Source of the DNA: Desulfosporosinus youngiae DSM 17734
GTDB taxonomy: Bacteria; Bacillota; Desulfitobacteriia; Desulfitobacteriales; Desulfitobacteriaceae
Assembly: GCF_000244895.1 (NCBI RefSeq)
Contig: NZ_CM001441.1
Coordinates: 1,632,226 to 1,696,225 of the forward strand
Direction of reading: 5' to 3'
DNA length: 64,000 nucleotides
The notes under the pieces: generated by a model
What the model saw: only the letters and a program-made list of their open reading frames with translations
Databases searched by the model: none
What the model was told of the DNA's origin: nothing
In this document: one piece after another, positions 2,915 through 10,677 of the stretch
How positions within the stretch are numbered: position 1 is the first letter of the stretch
How the letters are laid out: each line of letters opens with the position of its first letter
Program-made: the position numbers and the translations under genes

Positions 2915-3162
2915 TGGATAATGAAAGTAGCGAGGTCCGGGGTTCCACCCGTTCGATCCACACTGCAGGAGTATGCGTTTGGGGACGCAGTGTGGCGAAA
3001 AGCTCATTCCTTCGCCACGAAGTCTTCCTTTTGGGTGGGTGGCTCGGCGATACTGTCCACCGGACACTATCGTGCTTTTCGTATCCCGAACACGGAAGTT
3101 AAGACCTCCAGGGCCAAGGATACTCGGAGCGTAGCTCCCGGGAAAGCAGGTCATCGCCAGGT
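2915..3162 (+). pseudogene. Second 5S rRNA unit, interrupted by one inserted element
   Basis: The 5S segments GGGGTTCCACCCGTTC (2939-2954) and ATCCCGAACACGG through ATCGCCAGG (3083-3161) match the intact copy. They are separated by a ~127-bp insert at about 5S position 35. The first ~20 nt (GGATAATGAAAGTAGCGAGG) diverge from the intact copy and pair poorly with the 3' strand of helix I. The unit is probably not a functional 5S gene unless the insert is removed from the RNA. Boundaries at the 5' end are approximate. Confidence 0.75.
2955..3081 (+). repeat. 5S-inserted element, copy E1
   Basis: About 127 bp, starting GATCCACACTGCAGG and ending TATCGTGCTTTTCG. It contains three nested hairpins: CCACACTGC/GCAGTGTGG, TGGCGAA/TTCGCCA, and CGATACTGTCC/GGACACTATCG, the last with one mismatch. 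There is no open reading frame of note. It lies between 5S bases CCCGTTC and TA(T/C)CCCGAACACGG. A similar copy sits at the same 5S position in the next unit (E2). Confidence 0.85.
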
Positions 3163-3169
3163 AACAAGC

Positions 3170-3199
3170 GAAAGACCGTCTCTAACGAGATGGTCTTTC
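3170..3199 (+). terminator. Hairpin after the second 5S unit
   Basis: GAAAGACCGTCTC-TAAC-GAGATGGTCTTTC, a near copy of the hairpin at 2853-2882. It differs by T to C in the 5' arm, which turns a G-U pair into G-C. It is followed by the same TGTGTATCAGCGTGTATCAGTGATA flank, which marks a tandem duplication. Confidence 0.75.
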
Positions 3200-3265
3200 T
3201 GTGTATCAGCGTGTATCAGTGATATTGGATAATGAAAGCATCGAGGTTTGGGGTTCCACCCGTTC

Positions 3266-3393
3266 GATCCACACTGCAGGAGTGTGCGTTTGGGGACGCA
3301 GTGTGGCGAAAAGCTCATTCCTTCGCCACGAAGTCTTCCTTTTGGGTTGAGTGGCTCGGCGATACTGTCCATCGGACACTATCGTGCTCTTCG
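3266..3393 (+). repeat. 5S-inserted element, copy E2
   Basis: Nearly identical to E1 (GATCCACACTGCAGGAGTGTG... to ...CTCTTCG), with a few base changes and one extra base. It has the same three hairpins and the same insertion point in the 5S sequence. E1 and E2 may have been duplicated together with the 5S unit rather than inserted independently. Confidence 0.85.
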
Positions 3394-3416
3394 TATACCG
3401 AACACGGAAGTTAAGA

Positions 3417-3542
3417 ATCCACACTGCAGGAGTGTGCGTTATAAGTCGCAGTGTGGCGAAAGGCTCGTTCCTTCGCCACGAAGTGTTCCTTTGGGGTAGG
3501 TGGCTCGGCGATACTGTCCACTGGACACTATCGTGCCTTTCG
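3417..3542 (+). repeat. 5S-inserted element, copy E3
   Basis: About 126 bp with the same ends and hairpins as E1/E2 but more diverged (GCGTTATAAGTCGCAG in the first loop). It lies at a different point of the 5S sequence. The different insertion site, inside a unit that already holds E2, argues for independent mobility of the element rather than simple duplication. Confidence 0.85.
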
Positions 3543-3601
3543 TTCCAGGGCCGACGATACTCGGAGCATAGCTCCTGGGAAAGCAGGTTATTGCCAGGTA
3601 A

Positions 3602-3640
3602 GCGAAAAGCCATCTCTTAATGAGATGGCCTTTTCGTTTC
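3602..3640 (+). terminator. Terminator of the rRNA operon
   Basis: The hairpin CGAAAAGCCATCTC-TTAA-TGAGATGGCCTTTTCG is followed by TTTC and, shortly after, a run of Ts at 3656-3661. It has the same position relative to the 5S end as the two upstream hairpins but a different stem sequence. Confidence 0.75.
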
Positions 3641-9347: not shown

Positions 9348-10421
9348 ATGAAGGACAAAATGACCCCCCTTGAGAGAGCTAAGGCCATAGCCAAAGGGGA
9401 AAGGGCGGACCGCCTCCCCTGTAATCCCAATGTGGCCAATGGGGTTGCCCGGATTTACGGCTGTAAAATATCTGAATTTAATAGTAGTGCCAGGACGATC
9501 GCCGCTGCCCAAATCGCTTCTTACCGCCGTTTTGGCTATGATGGGGTAAGAATATTTACGGACTTGTTTGCCTGGGCGGAAGCAATGGGAGCGAAAGTTT
9601 ATTTCCCGGAGGACAATACTGCCGACCTGGCGGCTCCGGCTCTTGACGACATCGCAAAAAGTGACAGCTTAGTGCCGGCTGATCCTTATAAGGACGGCCG
9701 TTTGTCTGTCCATATCGAAGCGATGAAATATCTCGTCGATGAATTAGGAACAGAAGTCCCCTGTGCGGGAGGGATGGTCGGTCCTTTTACCAATGCCTTT
9801 TTTTTATTGGGCATTAAAAAGATGAGCAAGCTGTTCTTCACCAATCCGGAGGTAGTTCACCGGGCCTGTCAGGTGTCCCTGGAAACTTGTCTAAGATATG
9901 CCCAGGCGATCATTGATGCCGGTTTGACCCCAACCATTTCCGAGCCCATGTCTTCCTGTACGGTGGTGGGGCCCAAGCATTTTCGTGAATTTGCTGAGCC
10001 CTATCTGAAAAAGCTGGTGCAATATATTACTGCCCAAGGCAAGCCGGTGACCATGCATATTTGCGGGAAGACAGAAAAAATCTGGGAGGATATTGTCGCT
10101 ATGGGTGTAGCCGGCTTCAGTGTCGACAATGTGGTGGATCTCCAAAAATGCAAGGAACAGATTGGGGATCGGGTTAAAATACTGGGCCATGTGGATCCTT
10201 CGGCTGTGATGTATGCCGGGAGCCCCGCCGATGTGCGGGAGGCTGTGTTTAAGTGTGTGCAGCAGGCTTGGGATGCCCCGAAAGGATATGTCATTATGTC
10301 AGGCTGCAGTTTGCCTGTGGAAACGCCGTTAGGAAACATTGAAGCGATGATGGAGGCAGCCAGGGAGATTGGTTATCCCATTGATCCTGAAAAGCTGAAC
10401 AAAATGTTAAGCTCATGCTAA
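9348..10421 (+). CDS. Uroporphyrinogen decarboxylase-family methyltransferase, MtaA/CmuA-like
   Basis: A 357-residue TIM-barrel protein. The likely zinc ligands are His237 and Cys239 in MHICGKTEKIW and Cys320 in SGCSLPVETP, the same arrangement as in MtaA-type methylcobamide:thiol methyltransferases. True HemE lacks this Cys pattern, and no haem genes are nearby. In bacteria the acceptor may be tetrahydrofolate or a thiol; alternatively the enzyme may act on the substrate itself, as in CmuA. It overlaps functionally with the corrinoid gene just upstream and ends the operon. Confidence 0.88.
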   Translation: MKDKMTPLERAKAIAKGERADRLPCNPNVANGVARIYGCKISEFNSSARTIAAAQIASYRRFGYDGVRIFTDLFAWAEAMGAKVYFPEDNTADLAAPALDDIAKSDSLVPADPYKDGRLSVHIEAMKYLVDELGTEVPCAGGMVGPFTNAFFLLGIKKMSKLFFTNPEVVHRACQVSLETCLRYAQAIIDAGLTPTISEPMSSCTVVGPKHFREFAEPYLKKLVQYITAQGKPVTMHICGKTEKIWEDIVAMGVAGFSVDNVVDLQKCKEQIGDRVKILGHVDPSAVMYAGSPADVREAVFKCVQQAWDAPKGYVIMSGCSLPVETPLGNIEAMMEAAREIGYPIDPEKLNKMLSSC

Positions 10422-10539: not shown

Positions 10540-10620
10540 GATCTACACGGCAGGAGTGTTCGTCACGGGGTGCCATGTGGCGAAACTCTCCACTGGAGAC
10601 TTTCGTATCGCCAGGTAAAC
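10540..10620 (+). repeat. Orphan, shortened copy (E4) of the 5S-inserted element joined to a 5S 3' tail
   Basis: GATCTACACGGCAGGAGTG...CATGTGGCGAAA matches the first ~46 bases of E1-E3. CTCCACTGGAGACTTTCG matches their last hairpin and end; the middle is deleted. It is followed by TATCGCCAGGTAAACAA, which equals the 3' end and flank of the intact 5S gene (ATCGCCAGGTAAACAAGCGAA at 2834-2854). The segment is a relic of an interrupted 5S copy 7 kb downstream of the rRNA operon. Confidence 0.7.
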
Positions 10621-10677
10621 AAACGAAGGGGCTTTTGCACTACGAACTCTGTTCGTAGTGCAAAAGCCCCTTCGTTT
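10621..10677. repeat. Perfect 27-bp inverted repeat
   Basis: Two 27-base arms (AAACGAAGGGGCTTTTGCAC... and its exact complement) are separated by TCT. The repeat occupies the place that the terminator hairpin holds after normal 5S units (…AGGTAAACAA|GCGAAAG…). Perfect conservation of both arms suggests a recent or selected structure. It may act as a bidirectional terminator. Confidence 0.8.

Follow-up and report, generated by a model that had tools for sequence, protein, structure and literature searches.

What are the inserts that interrupt 5S-like units at the end of an rRNA (rrn) operon of Desulfosporosinus youngiae DSM 17734, and how could they have come to lie there? The window, namely, the whole 64,000-nt stretch of DNA that was analyzed, starts with a 23S rRNA gene (1–2552). 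An intact 5S rRNA gene (unit 1, 2729–2844; Rfam RF00001, 87.4 bits) follows on the forward strand, together with two 5S-like units, unit 2 (2936–3163; only 30.5 bits with the Rfam 5S model) and unit 3 (3247–3601, recognized by sequence comparison), and a terminator-like hairpin (3609–3639, same strand) lies 3′ of unit 3. A preliminary description had reported the intact 5S gene and the two 5S-like units with three inserts, and our comparison confirmed this. E1 (2956–3082, 127 nt; placed by an R1 match from 2956, its boundaries, and its fold) interrupts unit 2, and E2 (3267–3394, 128 nt) and E3 (3417–3543, 127 nt), both placed by R1 matches and boundaries, interrupt unit 3, all on the forward strand. 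E1 and E2 occupy one 5S position in loop C, between CCGTTC and ATACCGAAC, and E3 lies at a different position in the unit that carries E2, between GTTAAGA and TCCAGGG. The inserts have common ends, ATCCACACTG...TTCGT, with E2 terminating in CTCTTCGT.

The 5S match in units 2 and 3 begins at approximately position 18; the first ∼17 nt, corresponding to the 5′ strand of helix I, are absent. Because both units lack this strand and are located after an intact 5S gene, the view that they are pseudogenes, offered earlier as one possibility, is supported. Structured inserts in a 5S remnant at the distal rrn end agree with the class of 5S expansion segments and pseudogene inserts, and since the complete core of an expanded 5S gene is missing from units 2 and 3, we assigned them to the pseudogene inserts. 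An rRNA intervening sequence has an otherwise functional rRNA gene as its host and is cut out of the transcript, so that the rRNA is fragmented, whereas the units in the window are truncated and downstream of an intact 5S gene. Rfam contained no family for the elements described below or for the dispersed repeat in which one of them occurs, at either gathering or relaxed thresholds, and group I and group II introns were likewise not matched. The RNA fold of a whole inserted unit was not better than those of shuffled sequences (z −0.23). An assembly artefact, a possibility raised beforehand, is excluded because the same arrays recur in many independent assemblies, including the single-contig genomes G005, G014, and G018, and DNA matches in relatives with E values down to 6e-51 show that the array is not a product of chance.

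The inserts had been taken for a single element of approximately 127 bp with three hairpins. The lengths held (127, 128, and 127 nt), but each insert consists of two elements: a 63-bp two-hairpin element, alpha, and a 66- to 67-bp two-hairpin element, beta, which lies in the second hairpin loop of alpha. The beta copies, on the forward strand, occupy 3008–3073 in E1 (66 nt; R2 88.3 bits), 3319–3385 in E2 (67 nt; 81.7 bits), and 3469–3534 in E3 (66 nt; 89.3 bits). The nesting junction reads TCRT[CC]GC when empty and TCRT[TCC...CGT]GC when filled, which accounts for the length of the composite (63 + 66 − 2 = 127). This reading agrees with the RNA fold of E1, in which hairpin 1 is followed by an 8-bp stem that encloses the two beta hairpins. 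Elsewhere in the genome, both 5S positions are also occupied by a short, 63-nt alpha that lacks beta (L020, L021, and L023, in other operons).

Alpha and beta share the plan (A/T)TCC-hairpin1-GG-CGAnn-hairpin2-nnTCGT. In alpha, ATCC leads into a 9-bp hairpin, followed by CGA..TCG around an 8-bp hairpin and a final T. Among 31 distinct copies, 99.2% of the pair cells in the alpha stems were standard pairs, and five pairs covaried, with 30 doubly changed cells compared with 6.8 in shuffles and 0 to 1 in a sliding control. G-U pairs occupied only 2 of 527 cells, and this near absence suits DNA palindromes better than RNA. Beta follows an alpha-like plan, and its long second hairpin was kept in 25 copies. 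A fourth copy, absent from the earlier list of three inserts, lies on the forward strand at 10541–10606, 7 kb from the rrn operon. It is joined directly to the terminal bases and trailer of a 5S gene (ATCGCCAGGTAAACAA; 10607–10622, forward strand), with an ORF that ends at 10421 shortly upstream and a long hairpin downstream. This copy is chimeric, with an alpha-like hairpin 1 and a beta-like hairpin 2, and was matched by both models (R1, 51.4 bits; R2, 39.8 bits). It supports the view that alpha and beta would be subfamilies of one superfamily of 63- to 69-bp elements.

The preliminary description had left room for the element to occur in this one array only; this was not the case, as both the own genome and its relatives contain further copies. 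The own genome, a single contig of 5.66 Mb, contains nine rrn operons, and the first 5S gene is intact in every one. One or two insert-bearing units occur in six of them, including that of the window, and two operons have none; across the arrays, the number of units differs and units are truncated or lost. A check of the 16S insert regions, which had been proposed as possible sites, revealed no relation to alpha or beta: two of the eight 16S genes found (L058, G000:C1:540316–541978; L059, 529826–531489) have a 5′ region longer by ∼95 nt, from approximately base 70, and these extra segments are unrelated to the elements. We also observed a structured-looking dispersed repeat of ∼290 nt with at least 40 copies in the own genome (L060–L089, e.g., G000:C1:842818–843107), several internal hairpins of which are present or absent between copies. 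Rfam gave no support for regarding this repeat as a group II intron. Beta lies in approximately two dozen of its copies, distributed 16 versus 9 by replication strand (counted by eye, taking base 1 as the origin), which is no indication of a strand bias, and the remaining copies include empty ones. Another small hairpin repeat, GTGCGAAGACAGTGTCTTCG, is inserted in the same dispersed repeat and also occurs alone elsewhere (L027–L051, e.g., L048).

Among relatives, DNA matches to the inserts were found in 39 of the 46 genomes of the host's family. The alpha model matched 31 of the 83 genomes of the class, every one of them in this family, and the exact alpha pattern was restricted, among named genomes, to Desulfosporosinus. 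The beta model matched 44 of the 83, namely, 42 of the 46 family members and two genomes that belong to another single genus of the order. A phylum sample of 392 genomes from outside the family, in which few candidates were scored per genome so that weak or rare copies could be missed, gave no match. Occurrence of the elements is almost wholly limited to a single bacterial family. Counting those in 5S, alpha matches numbered 56 in G009 and at least 50 in another genome, G023.

Within rRNA, alpha occupies three main 5S positions, a shifted variant of the second (L135), and a 23S 3′ fragment (L154), and its orientation is sense wherever it was seen in 5S. In Desulfitobacterium dichloroeliminans (G005), the expanded 5S (NC_019903.1, 2241573–2241816), a more complete first 5S, has alpha as its insert near the 3′ end. 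The same genome also has other structured 5S inserts that are similar in plan but differ in sequence (L131–L133; e.g., TGCCGGCGCC...ATTTCGT at 5S loop C). Dispersed alpha copies outside 5S sit in hairpin loops outside rRNA, among them loops of several repeats, in G009, G011, G014, G022, G023, G024, G025, and G036, and the hosts of beta are mainly alpha, beta itself (L048, L101, and L139), and the dispersed repeat. The earlier statement that the element targets 5S DNA thus holds for the 5S sites but not as an exclusive preference. The many unrelated host sites known in both empty and filled versions support the earlier suggestion that the elements are noncoding and probably mobile.

Comparison of ten host positions in empty and filled form, of which two are known empty from a single copy each and three are themselves superfamily members, gave a common picture: in the simplest reading, (A)TCC...CGT takes the place of a YC dinucleotide (background frequency 0.12), and the target is not duplicated. 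With the lost dinucleotide in brackets, the empty sites are GTTC[CC]ATACC, AAGA[CC]TCCAGG, and TAGG[TC]ATCGCC in 5S; CRT[CC]GC in the alpha loop; ACTC[TC]CACC and CTGT[CC]ACCGG in beta loops; GACT[YC]GCCAAA in the dispersed repeat; and GGCCA[TC]CATGGCC, GCGCCR[TC]CTTGGCGC, and GGTTC[CC]GCCAAA in other hosts. The first 5S site often has 1 to 3 extra G (GTTCG/GTTCGGG), and the edge of the L135 site is shifted. The YC rule was derived after the pairs had been seen, and the position of some edges is uncertain by one base; for these reasons, and considering the extra G, the single empty copies, and the self-hosts, we attach no probability to it. The filled YC site is often in an apical loop. Flanking stems of at least 5 bp were present in 25 of 77 context clusters, which are not fully independent because alpha itself serves as a host, compared with a mean of 6.3 and a maximum of 13 in 2000 shuffles; many insertion contexts have no flanking stem.

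From the architecture, stem covariation, dispersal, nesting, net junction change, loop bias, and taxonomic limits of these elements, we consider that alpha and beta are probably small, noncoding, nonautonomous palindromic mobile elements that enter loop-forming or single-stranded DNA, and we regard the 5S units that carry them as probable pseudogenes. A copy would enter such DNA at a pyrimidine-C dinucleotide, which would be lost, leaving (A)TCC...CGT in its place. Hairpin loops would be the preferred targets, and the second hairpin of the element would itself be one, so that elements stack inside one another. Movement would take place at the DNA level through a putative trans-acting, hairpin-binding enzyme, in the manner of REP mobilization, and nonfunctional 5S pseudogene units would remain at rrn ends in arrays that recombine and gather elements. 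A Y1 transposase (PF01797) was not found at E ≤ 0.001 in the alpha-bearing genomes G005, G018, and G030; this enzyme was rejected as the mobilizer, as its presence does not track with the elements, although a Y1-type enzyme may once have been present and since been lost. We put forward more tentatively, as a possibility, that the elements make up a superfamily new to the literature, in which mobile twin hairpins insert preferentially into loops by replacing YC with ATCC...CGT and colonize structured RNA genes and their own loops, and that a putative mobilizing enzyme recognizes single-stranded hairpin loops.

Movement through RNA has to be weighed against this. An intervening sequence or retro-element could insert into an RNA loop, be reverse transcribed to DNA, and be either excised from the rRNA by an RNase III-like activity or tolerated in it. 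The targets are loops of structured RNAs (5S, the 23S fragment, and structured-looking repeats), and the helices of the elements are long enough for RNase III. The sense orientation of alpha in 5S also fits, but it is equally expected from lagging-strand insertion of single-stranded DNA in co-directional genes and does not decide between the DNA and RNA routes. With G-U pairs nearly absent from the alpha stems, and with truncated pseudogenes after intact 5S genes as the carriers in the own genome, we regard the RNA route as unlikely.

Passive spread, in which duplication, gene conversion, and horizontal transfer of rrn ends carried a single old 5S insertion to its present sites, is the model of Stepanov and Fox for this family, already published for these species (PMC7812874). 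It finds some agreement in our data: the near-identical alpha copies that a DNA search found in the own genome sit at rrn ends, and clustering of alpha sequences by site exceeds chance in a 48-nt tree that includes redundant loci (65 label changes versus 105 in shuffles). Gene conversion among rrn arrays could indeed have spread alpha between 5S units without transposition. However, the occurrence of alpha in other species within unrelated hairpin loops outside rRNA, and the nesting of beta in alpha, beta, and the dispersed repeat with the same junctions, make passive spread quite improbable as the explanation. It is very improbable that the elements are selected for a function, for example, as additional terminators at rrn ends or as hairpins that stabilize the RNA there, with stems covarying for that reason. 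The arrays are kept across the genus Desulfosporosinus, a terminator-like hairpin closes unit 3, and the copy at 10541 lies upstream of a long hairpin at an operon end, but the variable number, truncation, and loss of units, with two own operons having none, and the lack of an obvious terminator role for insertion into loops of other elements speak against selection.

Insert-bearing 5S pseudogenes downstream of normal 5S genes at rrn ends are already known in D. youngiae and D. orientis from Stepanov and Fox (2021), who proposed horizontal transfer and recombination (PMC7812874); the window inserts represent the same phenomenon in the same species set. The accessible part of that paper treats the inserts as 5S, 16S, and 23S expansion segments and does not describe non-rRNA dispersal, the alpha/beta composite, or the shared junction change. 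A literature search, outside which most subscription papers and supplements lay, found no description of a dispersed twin-hairpin superfamily with its nesting and junctions, nor of nested loop-targeting repeats in Desulfosporosinus. As far as searched, the shared alpha/beta architecture, non-rRNA dispersal, mutual nesting, family-level confinement, and YC replacement are new. This places a known oddity of 5S genes within a broader family of very small, probably mobile elements, and insertion of dispersed hairpin elements, rather than a ribosomal peculiarity, is offered as a source of bacterial 5S expansion segments, at least in the host's family. With many host sites known both empty and filled, and with the order of nesting, insertion chemistry and loop preference can be tested directly, and the elements could be used as a marker for the history of rrn ends and repeats in Desulfosporosinus.

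Among known systems, MITEs are defined by terminal inverted repeats and target-site duplication, whereas the ATCC and CGT ends are not inverted repeats and YC is lost. Very small mobile repeats of 21 to 27 nt that nest in one another occur in the cyanobacterium Nostoc; going by their general description, they resemble alpha and beta in small size and mutual nesting. The intervening sequences of 23S and 16S rRNA genes, such as that of Coxiella, are likewise rRNA inserts at a helix; the Coxiella sequence differs in its 428-nt length and in containing an ORF (PMC4990558). REPs and REPINs, including the GTAG- and CGTC-tagged families, are also palindromic, nonautonomous elements of tens of bp, often with paired hairpins (PMC3116915, PMC3733652). 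GTAG and CGTC REPs have an unpaired tag beside the stem, CGTC elements with 8 to 9 bp and a CCA-like tail (PMC3733652). By contrast, alpha and beta have no GTAG tag; their ends are ATCC...CGT, with the CG of the terminal CGT base-paired in hairpin 2, their two unlike hairpins stand in direct order, and the RAYT/Y1 transposase association of GTAG REPs and REPINs is missing, with no PF01797 in the three genomes named above. Rickettsia palindromic elements are likewise palindromic and inserted in RNA genes (tmRNA and RNase P RNA), but they measure 105 to 146 bp, also enter protein genes, and belong to another lineage, and nesting in their own loops is not mentioned (PMC2229807). The nearest parallels are thus these Rickettsia elements in RNA genes (PMC2229807) and the REPs inserted within palindromes, GTAG-23 of T. 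roseum and CGTC-1 of H. neapolitanus (PMC3733652).
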